Assembly: GCA_029204225.1 (NCBI GenBank)
Contig: CM055097.1
Location: forward strand, 58,644,651-58,708,650
Origin: Diphasiastrum complanatum
Taxonomy: Eukaryota > Streptophyta > Lycopodiopsida > Lycopodiales > Lycopodiaceae
Reading direction: 5' to 3'
Length of the DNA stretch: 64,000 bases
Positions 24,118 through 47,300 of this stretch are shown here, piece by piece. Under the pieces are notes generated by a model that did not search any database, was not told the origin of the DNA, and was given only the letters and a program-made list of their open reading frames with translations. Made by a program: the position numbers and the translations under genes. Position 1 is the first letter of the stretch, and every line of letters begins with the position of its first letter.

Positions 24118-26301
24118 GATGAACCCCAAACAATGGCCATTTCCGTGAAATCTGCATAGCTGACCGGCCAGTCGGCTCTGATACCACATATAGTGCAGAC
24201 ATCCAAAAGGGAGCCGGGAACCACGACTTAGCTTCCCAGCCTTCAGCTCTTGTCGTCCGAACCCACTTCACATACAAGCACCGACTCGCCAACAACGATC
24301 AGACTTAACCCACTTGAAGTTCTGAAACCAACATTGAGATCCAACCTGGCGCCATGCCAGATCGGGGGGTCCCGATGTGGGTGACTTCCCTCCAAGAAAG
24401 CCGCCCGACATACATCAAACTTAACTAACTCAAAGCTTCGTTACAAACAAGTAACATCCATTCCAAGCAAGTCGTCTGACTTACATCAGACTTAACCAAC
24501 TGAAAGCTTCCTCACGAGCGTTGGAAGCCAACCTGGCGCCACGCCAGTCTGGATAGCCATAAATAAGTAACTTCCACCCAAGCAAGCCATCCAACTCAGC
24601 CGATAGGTTAGAGCTTGTTCCCCAAGAGCTTAACCCATTCATGTTCATGCAAGGAACACTCAGAATCACAAGCCGCGACAGATATGGAGACAACCAGTTC
24701 TTGGACCGAATGGTCCCGACAGCATACCGTTGGCACCTTGGACCGAATGGTCCCGACGACATACTGGTTGGCGTCCCCGGATACAACCCTCAACAATGTG
24801 CCAGTTCAAAAAGTTTGAAGCACCCTTACAATTGGCGCTTTTACCGAACACTGAAATCCAGAAGGTAATCAGAGTCAGTCAAAGGAAAATCCCACTTTCT
24901 ATTAATAAATCTGAGAAGGTTACCTTTCAAGTGTGTGATCGACTCTAGTCTCCGGAGCGCTGGCATGCCAAGGCGGGCTTCAGGACAACATTCCAGCAAG
25001 GGAGACTAAGACTTGGTTGGAGCTCGTCCTGAGTCACAACCCGCACTCCCCTATAGTATTGGTGGGATTCGCCACCTCCCCTCATACCAAGTACTCTACC
25101 CAGGCTGGTAAAGCACGTTTTCTCTCTCTAGAAAGTCATTTCTCTCTCTAGAATCTATTGATCCCCAGACTTCCTTTAATCATGCCTAGATCGTGTGAGG
25201 TGATTGCACATTGATCTGAGCTCTCTGGACTTCGCTAGAACCGATCAAAGATTTTCAGCCATAGGAACTTGGCGCTAGTTGGATTTTGGTCACAATGGCG
25301 CCTGGAGCGGCGCCGGAGCCGATGGCGCCGGGGCAATGCTGTCCCTAGTGGCGCCGGAAGTAAAGCTTGTAAAGGTAGCTCTACAACAGCTTGCTAGAAT
25401 GTTGTCTTGGCGCTCACCTTGGCATGCCAACTCCCCGGAGACTAGGGTCGGTCACACACTTGATTGTAACCTTCTCAAATTTATTAATAAAGTGGGATTT
25501 TTCTCAAACTGACTCTGATTACCTTTTGGGTTTCAGTGTTTAGTAAAAGCGCCAGTTGTAAGGCTGCCTCAAATATTTTTGATCTGGCACTTAGCTAGGG
25601 TCGTATCCCGGGGACTCCCGTAGTATGCCGTCGGGACCATTCGGTTCGGGATTCTAGCGGTATACTGTCGGGACCATTCGGTCCAGGAATTGGTTGTTTT
25701 CATATCTGTCGCGGCTTGTGGTTCTGAGTGTTCCTTGCATGAACATGAATGGGTTAAGCTCTTGGGGAACAGGCTCTAACCTATCGGCTGAGTTGGATGG
25801 CTTGCTTGGGTGGAAGTTACTTATTTATGGCTATCCAGACTGGCGTGGCGCCAGGTTGGCTTCCAACGCTCGTGAGGAAGCTTTCAGTTGGTTAAGTCTG
25901 ATGTAAGTCAGACGACTTGCCTGGAATGGATGTTACTTGTTTGTAATGAAGCTTCGAATTAGTTAAGTTTGATGTATGTCGGGCGGCTTTCTTGGAGGGA
26001 AGTCACCCACATCGGGACCCCCCGATCTGGCATGGCGCCAGGTTGGATCTCAATGTTGGTTTCAGATCTTCAAGTGGGTTAAGTCTGATCGTTGTTGGCG
26101 AGTCGGAGCTTGTATGTGAAGTGGGTTCGGACGACAAGAGTTGAAGGCTGGGAAGCTAAGTTGTGGTTCCTGGCTCCCTTTTGGATGTTTGCACTATATG
26201 TGGTATCAGAGCCGACTGGCCGGTCAGCTATGCAGATTTCACGGAAATGGCCATTGTTTGGGGTTCATCAGGACAACTGTTGTGCAAAGTGCCGCCCACA
26301 T
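24088..26301. repeat. 2.2-kb palindrome of LTR sequence with a primer site on each arm
   Basis: The left arm (24088-25005) and right arm (25389-26301) are reverse complements over about 900 bp with small differences. Each contains a primer site TGGTATCAGAGC in outward orientation (24175-24186 on minus, 26201-26212 on plus) and LTR-like sequence on the centre side. The arms also carry the near-palindrome GGACCGAATGGTCC in two copies per arm. This is two LTRs of one family head to head. The 380-bp centre holds a different retroelement end. Either two elements inserted in opposite orientation or one inverted duplication occurred. Confidence 0.85.
25270..25370 (+). mobile_element. Start of a second LTR element (gypsy-type primer site) in the palindrome centre
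   Basis: R-U5-like sequence with two TTTCTCTCTCTAGAA boxes (25121-25155) ends in TTTTCAGCCA. It is followed by GGAACTTGGCGCTAG, the kind of primer site common in plant Ty3-gypsy elements, and then by ATGGCGCCTGG opening a short Ala/Pro frame (MAPGAAPEPMAPGQ) that stops after 17 codons. Only this 5' edge is present. Confidence 0.45.
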
Positions 26302-26472
26302 TTTAGGCTCCAATGCCGACTGCAACAATCAAAATACAAATATCAATAAATCCTTACTTATTAACAATCCAAATTAAAGCAACAAAAACAAACGAGCAAT
26401 CCTTACTTATTCTCATATGGAATCAAATAAAATTTTGTCACTGGACTGCATTCGATGAAATATACAGCCTTA

Positions 26473-26832
26473 TCAAAATCGGCTTCTTTTGCCTTCATCG
26501 CTTGGCATGAAAAATGGACTAACAACAAAAACTACACCATGAGAATCGGAACTAATGCTATGTTGCAAAAAGCATCCTTCGACTTCCACTATTACATATG
26601 TAATCTTTGATGTTTTATCTTTCAGCTCGGCACAAAATTTGGGATCTAATGTAAAGCTTCTATGTGAATTTGGAAGAAAGAAATCAAAATAATTGTCGAG
26701 AAGATCAATTTTATTAGCTAAGTAAGCCTCGTACTGGCTATAATGGTCAGAATCAAAATAAACTTGCACATGATTGTATGGAATTCTGACAAAAAAGATT
26801 ATGTACAGGAGCAGAAAGAGAAGTAGATACAA
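26473..26832 (-). CDS. Unknown protein fragment, 119 codons
   Basis: The N-terminal residues are hydrophobic (LLLFLLLYIIFFV) and may be a membrane segment or intron read-through. The rest looks like folded protein: YFDSDHYSQYEAYLANKIDLL, DFFLPNSHRSFTLDPKFC, ITYVIVEVEGCFL. I do not recognise it. It lies on the same strand as the histone-like pseudogene that ends 37 bp upstream of it, so it could be a neighbouring exon or an independent fragment. Confidence 0.3.
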   Translation of the reverse strand: MYLLLFLLLYIIFFVRIPYNHVQVYFDSDHYSQYEAYLANKIDLLDNYFDFFLPNSHRSFTLDPKFCAELKDKTSKITYVIVEVEGCFLQHSISSDSHGVVFVVSPFFMPSDEGKRSRF

Positions 26833-26869
26833 TATTTACAGATTTCTCGGTTATTTTGTCGAGCTACTT

Positions 26870-27526
26870 TTAGGTAATCATCACTTTTGGTGAAGAAACC
26901 TTCTGAGGAGCTGGACGAATAACACGAGAAGAGGGTGATTCTCGGTCTGAATCAGATTCTCCAGCATCTGATTCAGAGCTCAGGACGATGCGGGGTCTCT
27001 TGGTAGGGATAACTCCAGGAGGAAGGGAAGCAGCTGGCCTTCGAGATCCAGCTTTCTTGGGAACATGCTGCTTCCTTTTCCTCCTAGAGGTAGTTGGCAA
27101 GTTTGTTCTATCCAGCGGCAGGTCTCTGGAGGTGCTGGCGTTATCCACATGCAGACCAGAATAACGGTCCCGAAGTCTTCTGAGAATGACGAAAACTTTT
27201 TGCATGATGGTGACACGCTTACCATGCACGGCCAAAAGGCAAGTATCCTCAAAGAACTGGGACAGAAAGTCTTCTGCAGCACCCTGTAAGGCCTGCATGG
27301 CTGTCACGACAAAACGAACATTTAGCTCAAGTGACACAATGACATTCCTGACAGATTAGCCAAAAGGAACTTTAGGTATCAATAGTTCAGTTGATCTCTA
27401 GAGTTTTTTAATCTCCCTCAGCCAGACCTACTTTCTGCCACATCTATGGCCAATACCAAGGGAAACACGGGCATGGAATGGCTGTACAATGGTTATGGCA
27501 CGGGCAGTGGATTTGGTCTTAACCAT
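26870..27526 (-). pseudogene. Histone H3/CENH3-like pseudogene with a C-terminal extension
   Basis: One minus-strand frame from an ATG at 27526 matches H3: tail MVKTKSTAR, then WLREIKKL, STELLIPKVPF, VRNVIV, ALQGAAEDFLSQFFEDT, AVHGKRVTIM and ILRRLRDRY. LLIPKVPF and ALQGAAEDFL are closer to plant CENH3 than to canonical H3, but loop 1 is H3-length and the N-tail is only ~25 residues. TAG at 27430, TAG at 27400 and TAA at 27358 fall in frame at otherwise aligned positions, so introns are unlikely and this is a pseudogene. The half after the last stop stays open for ~155 codons and adds a ~95-residue basic/acidic tail (RRKRKQ, PTKRPR, SESDAGESDSDRE) unknown in H3. A functional protein could only start inside the fold. 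Confidence 0.8.
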
Positions 27527-27544
27527 CATTCTTTGAATTAAAAA

Positions 27545-28430
27545 AAATAAATTAGAAAAAAAAAAGTTTGAACCCAAGCGCAGGGAATGAAAACAAAAAA
27601 ATTTGCAACCAGAAGGCGCTTGAGATCGATACCAGAACTGAATATCGGTTTCGAGCGCAAGATAGATAGAGAATATGTGCAGAAAAGAGATCCGCGCTTG
27701 AAAGCGATATTGGAATCACAGCGGTATTGGTCTCGAGCGCACGGTGAGAATGTGGAGTATTTTGCGAAGAGAGAGCGCGCTTGAGAGCGATATTGCAAGC
27801 AAAAACCGAAAATTCTGCGAAAAAAATAAAAATTCCGAAGGCATATATATAGGAAATTTTTGCACATGTGAAAAAAATGGCTGATGACATGTGTCGACAT
27901 CTAACTGGTCCACGTGGATTGTTCATACTGACAATGATGACTCAATTATGAGGCCATGTGTGTCGGGACACGTGCACAAATCAAATGTGGACATGTGTCA
28001 TTCTGCACGTGATAGATGTCAGATCAGTCATTGTCTGTACGGCGGAATATTAATGATGAATCATGCATCGACACATGTCCTTTTGGAACTCCTCCACACG
28101 TGCAGAAAAAATTTATAAATAGGTCATTTTTGGTGCGAATTTTCATGCAAATTTTCAATTTCTTATCCGGATATCGATTTCAAGCGCGCCTATTCCATTG
28201 TTTATGCTCCGTTGACTTACTTGCGCTTGGAACCAATATTGCCTGGTCTGCTATTGCATTCAAGCGCGTCTTACATCTCATTTATTTTTTGATCTTTGTA
28301 CACGTGCTCGGATTCGATACCTTGTTTTCTTATATCTCTTTTGAGTGCACATTGCCTTGAGGTTCTTGTCTGACCTGCATTTTGCGCCTGAGAGCGATAT
28401 TGAAAATTTCACATCTGTATTTTTTGCTTA
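27545..28430. repeat. Head-to-head inverted repeat with shared leader sequence
   Basis: The minus-strand leader of the histone-like pseudogene (27870 to 27545) and the plus-strand leader of the next gene (28105 to 28430) align in the same order: a TATA-like box, GAATTTTC, ATATCG.T.TCAAGCGCGC, TGCGCT(T/C)G.(A)ACCAATA, and TTCAAGCGCG..TCT. The motif GCGCTTGA.A.CGATATTG recurs about eight times in both orientations. The 235-bp centre contains ACGTG cores and a perfect CCACGTGG at 27910. Two divergent genes therefore share duplicated upstream DNA. Confidence 0.7.
27865..28120. promoter_or_regulatory. Divergent promoter-like region with G-box cores
   Basis: CTATATATATG on the minus strand near 27850 and TTTATAAATAG on the plus strand near 28113 face outward. 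Between them are CCACGTGG (27910), ACACGTGC (27968), GCACGTGA (28005) and CACACGTGC (28095). G-boxes are bound by plant bZIP and bHLH factors; activity here is inference from sequence only. Confidence 0.5.
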
Positions 28431-28432
28431 AA

Positions 28433-29955
28433 ATGTCCAATTTTGATTCTAGTTTGTTTTCTTTTTTTCATGAATTTGGTATTAGTGATAATTTAGAGTA
28501 TTTCAAATCTCTTTTTTCTCCTTTTCTTTTTATTCTTCCCTCTATAACTGAGAGTCTTGGTGTGGAAGCATTTTCTGAGATTTATCTCAGATTTAAGTCT
28601 CCGCTCAGTACTCCCTTATTCAGATCTTAGAATAAGGACATGACTCATTATCAGGACCTGGTGGCACTTGACAAGCACAGCTATAAAGCCAAGCTTGACA
28701 GAATGTTCACCAAGTTACATAATGATTTCAAGTCTATAGATGAGTACCCAATTCACAATAAAAAAAAATGTAGATTTGTTGATTTTCAGTCTGCATTTGT
28801 TTTTTTTCTTTTATTAAATATTTTTGATGATTCGGAAGCTGGCCCTTCCACTTCTGAAGCTACTTCTTCCAGTGGTACAAAGTCTGAAAAGTCGAAGATT
28901 GTAGATATAGAAACTTTTTTTATTGATACGAGCGTTAGTTTAGATGACTGTACAGATTTTGATCCTACACGAAACAGGGCATCGTTTATTGGCCTTCTGA
29001 TAAATCTCTTATCACGTTGCCTAATTATAATATAGATAATAATTTTTTTTTGACATTATCGGATATATTGAATCTTTTTTATTTCACTGAAGCTGAGACT
29101 CTTTGCATTTTGAGCAAAGAGCTTGATGAATTTTCAAATATAATTGATTTTAATGTCGATGATCTTCTCTCTGGTGTTGACGATGTACATAATGATGAGC
29201 TTTACTCGAGGAAAGATTGCTTAAAAATGGTTGTGGAGGAAATGCGCAATAAAGAAGGTGATCTACCTTCTGAAGAGGAGTTTCTCATTATTCAAAGTCA
29301 GCTTAGTTTTCCAAAATCAATTGTCTACTCACCAACTATATTGACATCAAGAGGTGGACATAATATTGATGGAGAGACAGCAATCAAGGAAGACAATGCT
29401 GAATGCGTAAGTTTTGTATCTTATTATGGACTAGTAGATTCATTATGTCAGATTATAACCTGGAGCTTACTTTGGATTTTTTCATTTCAGAAAACAATTT
29501 TTCTTGATGATTTTGCAATTCGTCGAGGAGGGCAGAGATCTTTTGCAGGAGAATTTTTCAGAGATCATGCACTGGGGCATTATCTGAAGTTCTTCAAGAA
29601 TAATGAGATAAGTGTTGCCCATTCAAAGTTTCATCAACATGGTGAGACAATGATTATGGCAATCAAGGCACTGTCTCATTTTCTTGGAGGACATAATTTT
29701 AATAAGGTGCATAAAATAACTTTTGTAAAGAAAACTATTGCACTTCTTAAAATTTTAGGATATGGACCAGTGAATTCCATGCTCAGATCATCTCATTTTG
29801 CATTGTATGCTGCTTACGTTGATCTGAATAAGCATGAAAGCTATGATCTGAATAAGCATGAAAGCTATGAGCTGTTGGATCCATATGAAAGAAGAAAATT
29901 GTTGCATGATTCTAAATTGCAACTTTCATTACAAAAAGTATTGGAAGCAGAGTAG
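28433..29955 (+). CDS. Unknown multi-part gene, convergent with the transposase-like gene
   Basis: ATG at 28433 (MSNFDSSLFSFFHEFGIS) opens a frame with a TAG at 28628 before it continues with YQDLVALDKHSYKAKLDRMF, an acidic Ser-rich segment, and then a frame change near 28990. The final open frame to 29955 includes SKELDEFSNIIDFNVDDLL, IFLDDFAIRRGGQRS, EFFRDHALGHYLKFF and ETMIMAIKALSHFLGG. An 84-bp in-frame GT-AG intron is likely at 29407-29490 (GTAAGT...TTCATTTCAG). A 24-bp direct repeat duplicates DLNKHESY near 29820. I recognise no family. The stop and frame change mean either unseen introns or decay. It shares its upstream leader with the histone-like pseudogene. Confidence 0.5.
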
Positions 29956-32470
29956 ATACCGCTGAATTGTACTTTGTGAAAATTTTCATTTAATATACAA
30001 AATTTTATTGTGTGTCTATTGCCTATTGGCTTGTATAAATTTGCATGCTTTTTGAAATTTTTCATAATCCGTCGATTTTGTATAATGACGAATTTGGATT
30101 CTTCTATAAACCATTGGAAAAGTTGCAGTATATAGTTGTTCTTTGTGCTAGTCCCACCATATTGTGTACTTTTATGAAATGCCGCTCTTGCTTGCCAATG
30201 AGATTTTTCCATTCCTTGTGATGACCATATGCTAAGACTTCCACTATTTCTTGCAAAGAATGTCGAATGATGTCGTAATATGTGCTGCATGTTATAAAAA
30301 CATAATCTAAATCAATACCAAAAGTATCTAATTTAATTGCACATATTTGTCCATAGTAGTGTAACATTGAAATCTTACCATACAATGTGTTATATAATCA
30401 ACACCCCATGCACTTCGAACTATATCCACAAATTCACTAGTTGTTTTATGTATCATTTGTACATCAGTATTTGAAAAATTATCTTTTCGCAAGTATTTCA
30501 CCATGTTGTCTAATTTTTTCCAAACTTCTACCTTGTGTATACGAGTAGAACCTTCTTCTTCAAAATCTTGAGTTGCTGCAATAATCTCTTTCCAACCCGA
30601 GTATTGAATCTTGGATTGTTTGCCATAATAATTTGATAAAAATCTTCGAGCTTTGGATCCTCCAATGCTCGGCTTGCATGGAATATTTTCTATTTTACCT
30701 AATAGCTTGTCGTCTTTTTTTATTTTAACGTGGCCTTTATGTAAGCCTGCTTTAGACAACACATCCTCTAATCTAGAAATACATCTGCCTCTGGCTCGGA
30801 ATTCCATGCAAACAAGATGTGAAGATATATTATTTTTTCTATAATACGCACCTCTGCATGCAATGTACAGATATGAACATTCTGAAGAGGAATCGATAGT
30901 ACAGATTTCCAATTAGGATCTTCTCAATCTTTTAGTATTCCTATACTCCTGTCTTTTGTTGTCTTCATGCAGTACAAACAAGGGTGTATAGAGTTAGCGC
31001 CATGGCATACATTGAACATACATTTTAATGTCTTCAGATCTCCTACTAAATGCCATTCAATGTTGAAAGTGCCAATTCCAAAAATATTGAGTGGAACTCC
31101 CTCCATTGATTTTTTATGGTGGCAGGATATGGCATTCTATTAAATATCCATGAGAGAATGTCATGGTCTTCTTTCATCACCTATAAGAGAATACAAAAAC
31201 GTGATTAGCCTCATAATATTAACACAGAGAAGATTTCCCAAATGAAATCCATATTAAAATGATTAGCCCTATTGATTATGCGAAGGGACTGCTATACCTG
31301 AAATGTTGCCAACCACCAGATATCATTTTCTGATTGAACAATGAAATTGAGGCCTTCTTAGTCTTCTGAATTTAAAAGTGCTCCATTCATGATCGTGACA
31401 CTGACTCTTTTTATTTTTTGTCCTTTTATAATTTCAGACTCATCTAACTTGAAAACAACTATCAACTTGTTATTGACATTCTCATTTGTAAAACCGTAAA
31501 AATTTATGATGAATGTTAGTAACTGATTAATGTCAATAAATAAATTGTTGAAATTGTTATATGCTAGACTTTCTCCTTTTGAACAATACACTTCATTGAT
31601 ATGAGATGGATTACCAACTATTGTCTGCATACCTTGGTTTAACATGTCTCTTTTTTTTTAAAGATGAAATGGTCGTGGGATTGGAAACTTTTTAATACTT
31701 ACCTGTGCAAATGCCTCCTTTATCATCTTACACATTGTTAAATATGCTTCTCTACTGATGCTAGAAAAGTCACATGCCCCCTGAAGCAATGTAGTGTCTA
31801 ATATTTTTCCAACTTCATTCATAATGCTATCAGTAACTGAAGCCTTAATCTTTTTCATTTTGTTTTTGTTTGACATTAATTTCATAGACTTAGAAGTCAA
31901 GATAGAGCGTAATGAGTTTCCAGTCGAAATCTCATCGGCCAAATGGTCTTCAACAACCAATGATGATCTGCATTGCAAACATAATGTTCATGTAAATGTC
32001 AATAGAAATTAGGACACTCATAGTATTCACAGCAGTATAATAAGCAAATCAACAGAAAGTTGAAATGAATAAATAACAGAACTAGTGATTATGAATGAAT
32101 CAAAAAGTTCAAATAATATTTAATACCAGATAAGCTATAACTTACTTGAATGCACGGATTTGTCTTTTTCTATGACCTCCTATGGATGATAGATCACATA
32201 TATCCTTGTTTACCAGTCTTTTCCTCTTGTTGCTTCGGACCTTTCTATTGAGCACATCCATATCTTTAACAAGAGACAAATATGAGATACGCATGAATTG
32301 AAATGCAGTTTTTATCTCATCATTACTAGTTGTATAATGATGCAAAGAAGATTTCAATCTTTGGATCTCCTTCTTGATAAGACAAATGATTAGAAATCTC
32401 ACAAAGGTGTAGAATGCAAAAGTCTCATCAATCTTGTTAGCAAAATGGTGATCCTTTTATGGATCAAGTA
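29865..32470 (-). CDS. Multi-exon transposase-like gene of a family I cannot name (degenerate)
   Basis: Five minus-strand blocks join at good GT-AG sites with matching phase: 32470-32146 (NKIDETFAFYTFVRFL, coiled coil, basic NKRKR), 31967-31703 (SSLVVEDHLADEI), 31624-31298 (TIVGNPSHINEVY), 31180-30381 and 30284-29865. The fourth block has FNIEWHLVGDLKTLKCMFN and CHGANSIHPCLYCMK, then IPLQNVHICTLHAEVRIIEK and KPSIGGSKARRFLSN. The last has SQGMEKSHWQARAAFHKST and QYGGTSTKN. GDLK...PC.YC recalls the zinc-binding insert next to DDE-type transposase cores such as En/Spm TNP2. Stops (for example near 31367) and a frameshift near 31095 indicate a decayed copy. Its last 91 bp overlap the plus-strand gene. 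Confidence 0.55.
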
Positions 32471-32500
32471 CATCCACGAGTCTGGTACAGTCCAACAGGT

Positions 32501-32893
32501 CTTCACACGTGTGAAGAGTGCCACATCACTCAGATCTATCCATTTGATCCATCCTTGATCCTTATCCAAAGTTGACCTTCTAGAATATGGCTAAAATCCA
32601 AAAAGCTAGTCTCCTAGAATATAGGAGTATTTCCTACAAAATAGAATCTAAGGAAAATGGTCAAATCTTATCTTCTAGAACTCTATACACACGTGTGAAC
32701 ATCCACTTGCCATCTGGGAGCCTTTACTCATGCACATGCAAGGAAAAGCTAATTTCTAGGTGACTAGTCAACTTGACTAAAAACTAGTCATATCATGTTC
32801 ACACTAACTAGATTTATACAAAATATATTTAGATATATACAAGTATGAAAAGTACATCCTTTCACACGTGGGAACAGGCTTCACACGTGTGAA
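32501..32893. promoter_or_regulatory. Cluster of palindromic G-boxes (TTCACACGTGTGAA)
   Basis: A perfect 16-bp palindrome, CTTCACACGTGTGAAG, lies at 32501-32516. Close variants lie at 32686-32699, 32861-32875 and 32879-32893. They sit within about 430 bp upstream of the first seen exon of the minus-strand transposase-like gene, where its promoter would be. Factor binding is inference. Confidence 0.5.
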
Positions 32894-33019
32894 ATCAGAT
32901 CATCAACATTGTTCTAATGTTTGATCATTATTTACTATAACCAATGTCTAGTGAGAAGTGACAAATTTCAACAGATTAAAAACCGATTAGTCGATTAGTA
33001 AGAAGGAGAATAATCCAAC

Positions 33020-33835
33020 ACATGATTCACAGAAAAATGATTTCCTATCTAATGAAAGAGGTAATTGTAATCCATCAACTAAAGTATTACAACGCATGTA
33101 AGAAAGTGATCTTGTGAATTCACGTGTCCAAATCGACTATGTCATAGGACAGCATATCGTTTACATTATCATTTGAAGTACTAGCTAATGCTACTGAGTT
33201 AGATAATACATATAAATTTCTGATTCTAGTGCAGGTACTCAGAATGGTATCTTCGTCGAAAATTGTACACTGTTCAGATGAAAAGGTAACAATGTAGCCC
33301 TCGTTAGTTATCTTGGAAATTGCCAACAGGTTCTTAAATAACTGCAACACGTGAAGGACGTTGGGAACAGAAATAGGAAGATTGTTTTTGAACACAATCT
33401 TGATTGTCCCTTTGCCTTCAACGCAAATGGTTCTTGAATCTCCGAGATAGATGAATTGCGGTCTAGTATTCAAAAACAATCCTTCTATTTCTGTTTCCAA
33501 CGTCCTTCACGTGCCGCAGTTATCTAAGAACCTGTTGTCAATCTCCAAGATAATTGATGAGGGCTACACTATTACCTTTTCATCTGAATAGTGTAAAATC
33601 TTCGACAAAGATACCCTTCTGAGTACCTACACTAGAGTCGGAAATTTATATGTATTATTTGACTCAGTAGCATTAGCTAGTACTTCAAATGATAATGTAA
33701 ACGATCATGATGTTCTGTGACATAGTCGATTTGGACTCATGAATACAAGATCACTTTCTTACATGCGTTGTAATACTTTAGTTGATAGATTACAATTCTC
33801 TCTTACATTAGATAGGAAATCGTTTTTCTGAGAAT
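33020..33835. repeat. Inverted duplication of copia protease-integrase sequence
   Basis: The left arm (33020-33392, minus sense) and right arm (33469-33835, plus sense) carry the same copia stretch in opposite orientation: NNLPISVPNVLHVLQLFKNLL against NNPSISVSNVLHVPQLSKNLL. Both continue through FSSEQC.IFD.DT and LASTSNDNVND. The loop of about 75 bp belongs to the minus-sense copy (YLGDSRTICVEGKGTIKI). The plus arm has a stop after FSSE. This is a rearranged element, not two intact ones. Confidence 0.85.
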
Positions 33836-35100
33836 CTTGCATCTATGGAAAACACTTCAGAAACAAATTTCCCGAATCACATTCCATCAAACCAAAACAT
33901 GTATTAGATCTTGTACATAGCGACCTTTGTGTTCCAATGCCAAATGGAGAGAGAGGTTAGCTCAAAAGCTCAAGATGCATGCTAATGGAGAAACACATAA
34001 GAATGGAAAGCAAATAGAAACACACAACAAAAACATTAGCATGAGTGCTTAGCCAATGAGGATGCTTGGCTCTCCAATTTGGTAGAGTCTCCTCCTTCTC
34101 ATTAAGCATCAAAATAGAGTACATGAGGTGCCTTTTTATAAATGGGGAAGGCCCTTACCCCAAAATACTATTGGCTAATATGTACACTAATCCTATCCAT
34201 TCATCTTGGACCCAACTTAATCCAAGGGTCCTAAAAAAGTACATTGGATATCACAAGATTCATGTGAGTCCCAAATTGGACCCAACTTAAAAAAGTTTAA
34301 CACTAAGTTCTAAACTTGACTTGGGCCTCAAGTTTGATTTTAATTAGAACAGGGCCCAAGTCTATTATCTCTATTTAAGCTCAACTTGCATGCTCATTGG
34401 GCCATGAGCTTATACGCGCAGGATGCCATGCCCTCGCAACACATTTATTAGTCAAATTTATTTACCTACTCTGTGTTGGGAATACCCCCAACAGGACCCA
34501 CGGCTTGAAGTAGTGCCGGTCCCTTGGCACTCTGTCGGTTCAGTATAAGCCATCAACAACAAAACTCCTTATCAATTAATTTGGCACGGACACAAGCCTA
34601 GTGTCAACCACTTGAAAATGTTTGGTTGTATATGTTTCATTCATGTTCCTAAGAAGCTTAGGAAGAAACTGGACGAGAGGTCAAATAAATGCATCTTCAT
34701 TGGCTATCCTGATGAACATAAAGCTTGTAAGGTTTATGATCCATCCACCAATTTAGCATTTGTTTTTAGGGATGTGATCTTCAAAGAAGATACATTCTGA
34801 CTTCAAACAACCATTGACAGATGATGTTATGTCATTTCATCCTATTTTACACAACATAGAATCTTCCACACATGATGTTCCTTCTACAGAACTGAGCAGC
34901 CAACCGCACCAGTCGACCAGACTAGCCTAGCTCGAGCAGATCTGGATAACTTCAAGAAGGAACACCATCACAACCTGGTCAATCTATTGTTCGAAGATCA
35001 TCAAGAACTCGAATAGTTCCTAAGAGGTGCACACCTCAATCATTCTAGACTTCATCAGAAGAATCAAAGACCCTGGCTGAACATTAGAGAAAATATGGGC
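33836..35100 (+). pseudogene. Copia integrase fragment interrupted by LTR-like DNA
   Basis: The plus-sense copia continues from the right arm: ESCIYGKHFRNKFPE and LDLVHSDLCVPMPN (integrase start) to about 33945. It resumes at about 34556 with NNKTPYQLIWHGHKPSV and LKMFGCICFIHVPKKLRKKL (integrase C-terminal region), followed by decayed linker sequence to about 35100. The catalytic core is missing. The 600 bp in between has a TTTTTATAAATGG TATA-like box (34130) and TGTTGGGAATACCCCCAACA (34471-34490), an LTR-end-like palindrome, so a solo LTR is likely. Confidence 0.7.
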
Positions 35101-35274
35101 CCTATAAGAAATGCCATGTAGGAGAGAGAAAAATAACTATAAAATAATTATAATATCATTTTCTAACTTCTTTACACATCTGCCCGCACTACTTTCCATG
35201 TAAATGAATGCACCTTAGTTTAGTCACATCAAACTTCACTGGTACTTAACCATAGTTAAAATATAATTTTTAAA

Positions 35275-35891
35275 ATGCTGAAATATTCCCTCCCAATAGT
35301 TGGGAACACTCAAAAAATTAAATTAGGAGTGACATTTCTGAAACAAAGCGTACACCATCTCTATCTCCAGGGTCAAAAGCAAGTGTTTAGCGCCATCTGT
35401 ATCTCCAGCAGAGTCGTTAGCGCCATCTCCAGCTTTGTTATTGTCATTGTGTTGTTTGTTATTATACTACTGTACTGATGACAAAGCTTTATCATCTTCA
35501 TGTGGATCTATCACCAGAATATGCTCCGCTCAGGACAAGAAATTCAAAGCAACCCAGATTGTCAACTTCTGATATGGTCCGATACAGGGAGGAAAAGCTA
35601 AAGCATGTAGATTTATGGTCATCAGGAACATTGTATCCTATTGATCCATGTTCATTGCAACATCCAGATTTTCATAAGGTGAGTCAATTAATAATCTGTA
35701 TGTGTCACGATAAAAATGGCCTTTTGGGTTACTGTGAAAATTTGATGCTCTATGGGAATGCACATTCAATGCAAAGAATACATTATTTGGAAGAGGAATC
35801 AAGGAAAATATCAAAGGAGTGCGAAGAGAAATTTACAAAGTTGAAAACTTTTTGTTACGGCCAATTTCCACCGCTTATCAGCAATCAATGA
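35275..35891 (+). CDS. Unassigned open frames
   Basis: A 67-codon frame at 35275 ends in a hydrophobic segment (SSFVIVIVLFVIILLY). It is followed at once by a 137-codon frame at 35478 (MTKLYHLHVDLSPEYAPLRT, EKLKHVDLWSSGTLYPIDP, EEESRKISKECEEKFTKLK). The second looks protein-like up to a possible splice donor at HPDFHK (AAG|GTGAGT, about 35679); residues after that may be intron translation. I recognise neither. They lie just before a copia LTR and may be captured or flanking gene DNA. Confidence 0.3.
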
Positions 35892-35907
35892 CAAGGAACT
35901 GGATGGA

Positions 35908-36497
35908 TGTTAGCGGACACCAACCAACTGGCAATCACAATTGATGACCTGATTTCTTAGTATAAATAGTTGTTCATATTCATACAACTGATCCATCAAC
36001 TTACGATCAAGCATTTGAATAGTTACTCTCTCTTTCTCTCAAGCCTGCGAGCTTGAACACTCCTGAGCATTCTAGCTCACTCAAAGATAGCACAGAGTAC
36101 ACGGCTTTGATCCGCAACTTATTGTACTCATTTACTTCTATTTCGTTTTCATAGTGAATCAATACTATCTTTTATTGCGTTCAGTTTCGTCTCAGAATGT
36201 ATGCGTTTCTATAGTATTTTGTGACAAATTGTTTGTCTGATAATGCAATGCCTAATTGTTTGGCTACGTAATCACTGTAGTGCTAATAATTTCAAAGCTA
36301 GTTATTATAAGATCAAACGTTATTTCTATCACTCTTGTTTTTGTTTGAAATTGATAGGCGTAGTCATGCATTGAGAAAGAGGAAAATAGTTTATTCCACC
36401 ATGCACGAAAAGTTTTCTTTCTAGACGTTTGAATTATTTTTATTTAAGTTCGTTTCTTTTCGACTTCGACCTATACTCTGCACACTTCTTTCCGACA
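35908..36497 (+). repeat. 5' LTR of a copia element
   Basis: TGTTAGCGGACACC starts the segment and ...TTCCGACA ends it, directly before a primer site. A TATAAATAG box at 35961 and a CT-rich segment after it fit U3-R structure. The 3' LTR is absent because the element is truncated in integrase. Confidence 0.7.
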
Positions 36498-44378: not shown

Positions 44379-47300
44379 ATGTCGACACAAACTCTTAGCA
44401 GCTCTGCTCCGACACAAGGAGGCTCTTCTGCCACTCCGCCCGCAGGTTCTCCTCCACCTAGTACTTCATCTCCAATTGCAGGTTCTCCTCCACCTAGTAC
44501 TTCATCTCCAATTGCAGGTTCTCCTCCACCTAGTACTCCATCTCCACCCGCAAGCTCTCCTCCATCTCCACCTGCTCCTCTTGCCAGCCATAAATCGCAA
44601 GCAGCCAATTCTCCACCAGCTCCTCCACCAGCAGCCAATTCTCCACCAGCTCCTCCACCAGCAGCCAATTCTCCACCAGCTCCTCCACCAGCAGCCAATT
44701 CTCCTCCAGCTCCCCCTCCTGCTAATCCTCCTGCTGACGCTCCTCCCCCCGCCAACACCCCTCCTCCTGCAGCCAGTCCCCCTCCTGCTTCTCCTCCACC
44801 AGCTGCTCCTCTCTCTCCACCACCCTCGAATCCACCCCCATCTCAGCCACCACCCGTGGTAAATCCTCCGAGTCCTCCACCTGCATCAACAAATCCTCCT
44901 CCTTCCCCTCCCGCTGCAACCCCTCCTCCTCAACGAATCGCCGCTCCTCCTCTCACTCCTCCGACAGTCTCGCCACCAGCCCCCATATTGCAGCAATCCC
45001 CGCCTCCTCTTCCACCAGCTTCACCACCTCCATCACCACCATTGCCTGGTTCATCTCCTCCACCCGGTGCACCTCCACCATCACCACCATTGCCTGTTTC
45101 ATCTCCTCCACCCGGTGCACCTCCACCATCTCCCCCGCTGCCTGCTTCATCTCCTCCGCCCGGGGCACCTCCACCATCATCCCCATTGCCTGTTTCGTCT
45201 CCTCCACGAGGTGCACCTCCACCATCACCCCCATTGCATGCTTCATCTCCTCCACCCGGGACACCTCCACCATCGTCCCCATTGCCCGTTTCATCTTCTC
45301 CACCCGGTGCACCTCCACCATCTCCCCCATTGCCAATTTCGCCTCCTCCAAGCACTGCGCCTCCACCATCGCATCCTTCAACCCCATTCCCCATTTTACA
45401 TCCACCCAGAGCGCCTCCACCATCGCCACCGTTTTTACCACCACCGCCTCCTGTTCCGGTCCCTCCATCGCCGCCGCCGCCTCCAGGTGCAGCTTCTTCA
45501 CCCCCTAGGTCCTCCCCTGGCTCACCGCCTCCCCCTCAGAACAAATCTCCTCCACCACCTCATACGACTGGCAGTTCGCCTCCCCCTCCAGTGAAGCTAT
45601 CGCCACCTTCCAATTCCACCGCCAGTCCACCAGTATCGCCTCCTAATTCAACGATCCTTTCACCACCAGCACGACCAACCCGGCCAGGAGTCACTGCGCC
45701 TCCTCCAGTGGTGCTCCCTGCACCGCCTCCATCACAGAAGCTGACTCTACCCCCCCCACCTCCAGCCCTTCTCCGTCCTCCATCCCATTTGAATGGCAGC
45801 ACTCCCCCAGTACTTCCTTCATCACCTGGTAATATATCTCCTCCTCCACCTGCCAATGGGAGCACTCCCCCAGGTGTTACTGCACCGCCCGGCGGTGCAA
45901 ATCCACCGAAAAACGGGCCTCCAACTGGAAATCTCTCTCCACCTTCACCTTCGAATGGAACAAATGGAGGAGGATCATATGGGGGACCGGGGGGGATTGT
46001 TGGCATTGCGGTTGGAGCAGCTGTTGCAGTGGCGTTGCTTGCAATAGTTGTGCTGCTCTGCACCAGGAAACGAAAGAGAAACAAGTTTGGAGACGGAATC
46101 CACTATGGAAGTGTTGCAGTAAGATCTTCATCCCATAAAGGTGCACATCTAGCCTGCTTACATTTCTTACTTTATATAAAAGTCTCAGTTCTCTGCGACT
46201 AATGTTAAAGCGGTTTTCAAATCTAATAGATACATCTTGAATACAAGACAAAAAAGAAGAATTTGTACATCTTCATTCCACAACTTCAAAGGAGGTGCAC
46301 ATCGACTAGGCTCTAGCTTGCTTACATTTCTTACTTTGTCTGTTAAATCTCAATGTTTCTTTGTTACTCATCTTAAAGCGGTTCCCAAATCTAATAGATA
46401 CTTATTTAATACAAGACAAAATAATACGTGCACATCTTCGCTTTATAAAGGAGGCGCACATTTAGCTTGTTCAATTTTTTGCTTTGTCCATATCTTATTG
46501 TTATTTTTCAAAGTTCTTACCAATTTAAAGCAGTTCCCAAATCTAACAGATGCACATCTTTAATCCAAGAGGAACAAATAGACGTCCATCTCCATTCCAT
46601 CTAGGAGGTACACATAAAGCTTCCCTACGGTTCTCGCCTTCTCTAAAACCTTAAATTCAATCGTTTCCTTGCTAAGAATTCTATAGCAATTCTCAAATGT
46701 GCTACATCCGACGTCGATGTAAATTTTGGAAAGTGAATGCCACCAGCGCCTGCTTTGACATCTATTGCGAAGAACATAAAATGAAAATGAACAACCGGAT
46801 GCTATTGCTACAAGTCTTCATTTAGACATAACCTTCTCTCTTTTTACTGTTCAAGAAGTTAATGAAATCCCTTCCAGCATACTTGATTTTTTTAGTTAGG
46901 AAGGGATCGTCACCTTGATTCTGTTGATCCATATTTGATAATGTTTATCAATCAGTGTTATTGTTTCAACTTTTGCTAAGGGCTACTCTGTGCTGACAAA
47001 GTTATTAATTGCTCGTGAAAAGTTAGTCATGACCATCATGTGCTACGCATCAGATAAAGCCTTCACATTCTCTAAAGTTCATTTAACTCATTTTCCAGTG
47101 CTCACTTTTGCATGAACAGATGGCTTATATGACGGTAGACAGAGGTTTGATGCTCTTTACTCCGGAGCATCGGATGCTAATGGAAATCCTTTCTATCCTC
47201 CTCCGCCCGCATCTTACGGGCCAATTCCCCCCCCACCTCAAGGTTCTTCTCCAAGCATGGGAAACTCGAGATCTTTTTTCACTCACCGTGAACTTGAGGC

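Follow-up and report, generated by a model that had tools for sequence, protein, structure and literature searches.

Transposases of the CMCT clade come from highly diverged groups (EnSpm/CACTA, Mirage, Chapaev, Transib, Plavaka, ESTA, Lanisha and RAG1) and, in the passages of Kojima (2025, PMC12730594) drawn on here, are marked by C(2)C and H(3-4)H motifs between the second D and the E and by CA..TG element ends, with a target-site duplication (TSD) of 2 to 5 bp as a further criterion. The RAG1 residues given in the relevant section of PMC4914335 are D600, D708, C727, C730, H937, H942 and E962. CACTA elements are described in the cited part of PMC4158355 as carrying a transposase and a second gene, ORF2. 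Fungal transposons of the CMCT clade carry TET/JBP genes (PMC12730594, same passages), and in Pseudocercospora fijiensis a host (housekeeping) histone H3 was captured by a hAT element, with H3-like sequence in 471 repeats (relevant sections of PMC6710886). The locus compared with these systems here lies in a stretch of 64,000 nucleotides of the lycopod Diphasiastrum complanatum (assembly GCA_029204225.1, contig CM055097.1, positions 58,644,651 to 58,708,650, forward strand), called the window below, in which an earlier note had read positions 28433..32470 as a convergent gene pair from a mobile or selfish unit. With a probability of about 0.72, this region is the central part of a single broken copy of a DNA transposon of about 9 kb, high in copy number and of cut-and-paste type, with four genes that include a CMCT-clade-like transposase gene and an H3-Ulp1-like gene.

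The genome searched comprised 1.74 Gb in 5176 contigs. A 70-aa exon piece of the transposase gene (gene 1) gave at least 150 scored matches, each with E ≤ 4.6e-27, and 6306 first-look candidates, a repetition that far exceeds chance. Twenty loci were fetched with their flanks from these matches, selected by score and open frame, and six were extended. Since L011/L013, L017/L018 and L025/L026 are apparent duplicate pairs, the independent loci number fewer than 20. Likewise, L009, the best match, agrees with window positions 26034-36005 at 98% identity over 9985 bp, and since it lies 144 kb away, inverted, with the identical rearrangement, it was taken to result from segmental duplication rather than from a new insertion. 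As read from the sequence of the copies, the element is made up of four genes: the transposase gene 1, the convergent gene 2, the H3-Ulp1-like gene 3 and a small gene 4 near the right end. The consensus frames are open and the splice sites standard. Both members of the two-gene unit proposed before are genuine, but the unit was incomplete, since the element continues with genes 3 and 4.

The idea of a mobile unit was borne out by terminal inverted repeats (TIRs). An element of about 9 kb, CATTAGAGAAA...TTTCTCTAATG, was seen end to end in two copies other than that of the window, L024 (8.9 kb) and L016 (9.4 kb). The TIRs, 5'-CATTAGAGAAA, are imperfect and about 35-40 bp long as judged by eye. 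The left end, CATTAGAGAAAATATGGGCCC, was placed from alignment borders, and its first 21 bp are exact in 10 fetched loci (L009, L012, L013, L016, L021, L022, L024, L025, L026 and L027) and in the window; L040 and L046 carry it likewise. The right end, in inward direction, reads CATTAGAGAAACTTAGAGCCC in L024 and L014; L016 differs from it by one change. A TIR pair is present in L024 and L016, and also in L014, but there the left end is mutated. An end search in six more copies (12 stretches) yielded a left end twice and no right end. The termini of L024 and L016 are CATTAG..CTAATG, which fits 5'-CA..TG-3'; the right end of L016 is altered further in. The ends thus read CATTA..TAATG, not CACTA..TAGTG as in CACTA/EnSpm.

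Gene 1 was modelled from the copy consensus and splice sites with five exons, 768 aa and introns of 180, 78, 117 and 94 bp. In the window it is decayed and occupies 30022..32381 on the minus strand, where tblastn of the exon models placed part of E1 at 32381-32148, E2 at 31966-31703, E3 at 31624-31298, E4 at 31180-30379 and E5 at 30284-30022. This mapping agrees with the five-exon minus-strand gene meeting a plus-strand gene that had been described before. The motifs GDLK..PCLYC and KARRF recorded then are also present; their counterparts in a 39%-identical relative are ADLK..FCIYC and KARHL. The gene is of DDE type in its layout, as had been supposed, with the candidate residues D358 - D454 - C474 - C477 - H680 - H685 - E705 in the consensus. 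Further acidic residues lie near the candidate sites; E705 is the only Glu in exon 5. The C(2)C and H(4)H motifs occur both in this family and in a second one, family 2, presented below (PCLYC and FCIYC; HILRHH and HIFYAH), in which E4 and E5 are conserved. From the second D onward the spacing is within 4 residues of that of RAG1 (D2-C 20 vs. 19, C-H 203 vs. 207, H-H 5 vs. 5, H-E 25 vs. 25, D2-E 251 vs. 254), although this fit is partly chosen, chiefly for the two D, since the residues were picked with RAG1 in mind. The corresponding distances in family 2 are 20 for D2-C, 209 for C-H, 25 for H-E and 257 for D2-E.

The earlier note could match gene 1 to no named superfamily. This holds for sequence matches, and no close match of the product to a known superfamily occurred in the Pfam and PDB sequence searches. 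As a general statement it is too strong, since three features point to the CMCT clade: the CA..TG ends, a spacing like that of RAG1 and the signature C(2)C/H(4)H. Gene 1 would then encode a predicted DDE transposase of CMCT-clade type with a RAG1-like zinc insertion. Single exons of gene 1 gave chance matches only against Pfam, none over the cut-off, and scans of viral and genome contig collections with exon E4 gave no relatives.

Gene 3 is on the transposase strand, outside the interval singled out by the earlier note. In copies other than that of the window its frame begins MMARTKSTAR, followed by a histone fold; the Pfam model PF00125 matches with E=7e-23 in L024 and, for the window, with E=4.8e-11 on 26873-27355. 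The best PDB matches are CENP-A (7.1e-19) and H3.1 (1.1e-18). The frame continues via a linker and three further exons and reaches a stretch that contains HWSL and QQN..SCAWF. In Ulp1/C48 proteases, the catalytic triad is His-Asp-Cys. Exon 4 was taken from copy L022, the consensus being frame-broken there. Gene 3 thus encodes a divergent variant of histone H3 joined to a putative, borderline Ulp1/C48-like cysteine protease domain. In the window, the H3 part (26822..27529, minus strand, by tblastn) is decayed and followed by the start of the Ulp1/C48-like domain (26406..26790, minus strand), exons 2-4 having been lost through truncation at 26302.

When the genome was searched with the gene 3 protein of L024, 138 scored matches, 78-100% identical, were obtained from 8193 first-look candidates, and at 7 of these 138 places the H3 is covered by an uninterrupted frame, 387-438 aa long. 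Five gene 3 places were fetched: L035-L038 have an open frame of 393-397 aa with H3 plus the start of the Ulp1 part, L037 and L038 being near-identical, and the L039 frame departs early from the Ulp1 sequence. Among the gene 1 loci with H3, it is on the transposase strand in seven and inverted in one (L022); L017 and L018 retain the Ulp1 part alone.

Over 86 aa, the element H3 and host H3 agree in 56% of residues; with the H3 of family 2 the identity is 48% over 93 aa. PF00125 gave 6325 first-look candidates and at least 153 matches in the genome, 13 of which score 163.7-165 bits; the two inspected are canonical H3. Among the other 140, six were inspected; a second H3 family, marked by a Pro-rich N-terminus, accounts for five of them. 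The sixth, L055 (G000:C13:7457900-7458600), is a third H3-like type, ..MEEIKKYQKSTRLLLLRAPFMR.., which could be a host variant or part of another element.

Gene 2, the plus-strand partner, has two exons and 477 aa in the copy consensus. In the window it is decayed and covers 28433..29952 (exon 1, 28433-29406, with its ATG exactly at 28433; exon 2, 29491-29952), broken by one stop and one frameshift. No Pfam match was obtained, and phmmer against PDB gave nothing to E 10, in agreement with the earlier description of a gene without known family. It was found in 18 of the 20 loci, on the strand opposite gene 1 in 18/18 and always convergent, but not in L010 or L015; since the loci were chosen by gene 1, this co-occurrence is conditional on gene 1. 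That the two genes never occur together in other copies had been named as what would refute the unit; in these loci this refuting outcome did not arise. The 5' region common to gene 2 and the H3 gene (27530..28432) is CACGTG-rich and would be a bidirectional promoter by its position only. Five of the 19 CACGTG sites of the window fall within 27500-28450 and none in 28450-32377, while L024 and L016 have nine each, every one in the block matching 27500-28450. ACGTG-rich DNA had been claimed for both flanks of the gene pair; it is seen on the upstream side of gene 2 but not on the other side.

Gene 4 is a frame near the right end, on the strand opposite gene 3 (L024:11001-11319 and, in family 2, L060:1653-1922). 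One of its parts, g4a or g4b, was found in 9 of the 20 loci, and it is 38% conserved between the families. Pfam and PDB searches gave no family for it. A ubiquitin-like or PB1 fold, considered after a weak PF00564 match (E=0.05) of a later family 2 exon, is unproven, as is a BAH fold, for which no Pfam or PDB match was obtained.

Family 2 was found via its H3 gene, which is dispersed, has a long proline-rich N-terminus (L054, L056-L060; e.g., L060:3449-4630) and matches PF00125 with E=1.3e-28 in L060. Its transposase relative was fetched as L061, at an offset derived from L059. There, E4 is 39% identical over all 273 aa (E=8e-75) and E5 38% (E=4.7e-20); the second D, both C, CT[LM]H, both H and the E are kept, D1 lying outside the covered stretch. 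The E4|E5 intron is in the same position as in family 1, while the E3|E4 intron is absent, E3 and E4 being continuous; the short E3 piece contains a stop. An H3 match beside L061 is known from the PF00125 matches listed alone. In 9 kb of L059, relatives were found of E5 (34%, E=3e-15), H3 (47%, E=1.6e-24), g4a (38%, E=4.7e-14) and gene 2 (33% over 66 aa, E=1.7e-9), with gene 4 and H3 forward and gene 2 and the transposase reverse, so that order and strands differ from family 1. In L060, H3 and g4a recur; its gene 2 match is weaker, and a weak g4b match (32%, E=5e-4) is added. L060 and L059 have a 4.3 kb block in common, 95% identical, and were therefore taken as two copies of a single family. 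Since each of the four genes has a relative there, in a different arrangement, the four look like a retained module, and family 2 provides the strongest evidence, from predicted gene relatives, that they belong together.

Compared with the known systems, the element shares with the CMCT clade TIRs, 5'-CA..TG-3' termini, a spacing like that of RAG1 and the C(2)C and H(4)H motifs that lie after the second D and before the E. It differs in its CATTAG ends and its unusual cargo of four genes; no sequence match to the clade was detectable, and a TSD was not found in the two clean-ended copies. Zisupton and plant Mutator-like elements carry Ulp1/C48 protease genes, and a paper on Ginger transposons (PMC2836005) mentions Ulp1 21 times. 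An Ulp1-like cysteine protease as accessory domain is common to these and the present element, but here it forms the C-terminal portion of a histone H3 protein. Gene 2 resembles the second gene of CACTA elements by position (cited part of PMC4158355). The fungal TET/JBP carriers are alike in having chromatin-acting accessory genes in elements of the CMCT clade, although the enzyme there acts on methylcytosine and the protein here is a histone. The P. fijiensis hAT is also a high-copy DNA transposon with H3-like sequence, but with a host H3 coding sequence and 8 bp TSDs (relevant sections of PMC6710886), in contrast to the divergent H3 variant, Ulp1-like fusion, H3 relatives in two families and other transposase of this element. 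Among the open-licence PubMed Central papers listed on histone genes and on histone with Ulp1 in transposons, and on lycophyte elements, no divergent, fused and module-linked H3 in a transposon was found, which is weak evidence of absence.

Several results weigh against the interpretation given above. None of the 20 loci holds an undamaged and complete gene 1. The D1-D2 distance of its product is 96 compared with 108 in RAG1, and no Pfam model matched gene 1 over the cut-off. Against PDB, phmmer gave no match to E 10 and a profile search only a chance match (E 1.3). The AlphaFold model of gene 1 copy L027, read through its introns, has a mean pLDDT (predicted local distance difference test score) of 39.4, so that the RNase H-like fold proposed for checking is not supported by a model. 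Aligning copy ends, as had also been proposed, gave the TIRs but no TSD in the flanks of L024 and L016, the only two clean-ended pairs, which are too few to call the duplication absent. For gene 3, the Ulp1/C48 model PF02902 scored 20.0 bits on the spliced model (E=6.5e-4) against a cut-off of 20.7, and the His and Cys motifs (HW, QQN...SCAWF) are present while the Asp position is not clear. H3 was found in 8 of the 20 gene 1 loci as far as fetched. In family 2, which was recognised from gene relatives and not from mapped ends, no Ulp1 part was found (L059, L060). Pairwise ratios of non-synonymous to synonymous substitution (dN/dS) between copies were 0.39-0.49 for gene 3, with 0.49 for its H3 part, vs. 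0.63-0.67 for wrong frames of H3, and 0.70 for gene 1 E4 vs. 0.46 for wrong frames and 0.31 for an intron read as codons; they are uninformative, because wrong frames and intron score equally low.

Whether the gene 1 product falls within an existing CMCT superfamily, EnSpm/CACTA or Lanisha, with the cargo alone being new, stands at even odds. The CMCT signature and ends fit such a placement, as does the two-gene core, transposase plus ORF2 in CACTA (cited part of PMC4158355), and Lanisha is itself a CMCT lineage (PMC12730594, passages cited above); but the ends read CATTA and not CACTA, the gene has no Pfam match over the cut-off, and the 2-5 bp TSD was not seen in L024 or L016. It is unlikely that the H3 is an accidental passenger, a host gene captured and amplified without any role for the element. 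P. fijiensis offers a fungal precedent (relevant sections of PMC6710886), many copies are broken, and 12 of the 20 gene 1 loci have no H3 as far as fetched. Against this, the H3 is far from host H3 (the 56% given above), yet uninterrupted frames persist in 7 of 138 places; it is fused to a second domain; and an H3 also occurs in the second family, at 39% transposase identity, where the other genes have relatives too, arranged differently.

A centromeric-type histone that would steer insertion to centromeres or make use of them appears distinctly improbable. CENP-A is the top PDB match, with H3.1 close behind, and LIPRAPF in the element H3 resembles the LIPFAPF of plant CENH3; RKLQ is common to the element H3 and CENP-A. 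In CENH3/CENP-A, loop 1 is longer than in H3, but in the alignment that of the element H3 is as short as in host H3. A tree of H3 sequences with plant CENH3 rows does not place the element H3 with CENH3, the forks relevant to an H3 or a CENH3 origin having little resolution in it. The seven H3-gene places on contig C6 among the matches listed span 4.3 to 64.9 Mb of 75.6 Mb. Least probable is a chimera, in which the H3-Ulp1 gene and the right end would come from another element nested beside a transposase element. Rearrangements do occur in many loci, with the H3 part inverted in L022, but L024 and L016 hold the parts within one TIR pair, and in L059 a single 9 kb stretch contains relatives of all four genes.

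The copy in the window is truncated and rearranged. It extends over 26302..35853, as determined by blastn of the window against the 20 copies, in which the borders 26302, 32377, 35082 and 35853 recur, and the right end of the element is missing beyond 26302. The left terminal 770 bp or so, with the TIR CATTAGAGAAAATATGGGCCC, lies at 35082..35853 (plus strand) from the alignment borders, inverted relative to the gene, and 32378-35081, between this end and the gene, is other DNA, retrotransposon-like. E1 of gene 1 is cut at about 32377, at the inversion; E3 and E4 contain stops, and E4 and E5 frameshifts. Inside the inverted segment, positions 33021-33839 form nested inverted repeats with 240-nt arms, 90% complementary and 70 nt apart, which overlap Copia-like coding pieces as judged by eye. 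Elsewhere in the window, 44442-45370 consists of GC-rich tandem repeats of the CTCCTCCACC type, with units of 36, 30 and 48 bp, which have no H3-like match and possibly encode a proline-rich protein in another frame.

In the transposon with its own H3-Ulp1-like gene favoured here, the gene 1 transposase would likely cut at the TIRs in a cut-and-paste reaction, and gene 2 may help transposition, as ORF2 does in CACTA elements. Because of its domain content and the retention of H3 in two families, the H3-Ulp1 protein is proposed to act on chromatin, most likely by entering nucleosomes on or near the element. There it would also remove SUMO from silencing factors, so that the element would escape silencing. 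The role of the H3 would then be anti-silencing or self-chromatinisation. It is a tentative proposal, somewhat short of an even chance, that the lineage's own H3 variant, joined to a deSUMOylating enzyme, has a working function in the life cycle of the transposon, where it would rewrite chromatin at the copies of the element or at its targets.

Chromatin-acting TET/JBP genes in elements of the CMCT clade and a host H3 amplified by a fungal hAT were known already. Here, a divergent H3 variant with a putative SUMO-protease-like fusion is accompanied by three other element genes, in a set that has a related counterpart in a second family. A mobile element would thus supply a chromatin protein of its own, and the findings suggest a histone used as the tool of the element. 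Direct tests become possible of whether the H3-Ulp1 protein enters nucleosomes, where it does so, and whether it blocks silencing. The element also offers a route for a genome to gain very many extra H3-type genes, which bears on histone annotation and on chromatin immunoprecipitation with H3 antibodies in this plant.

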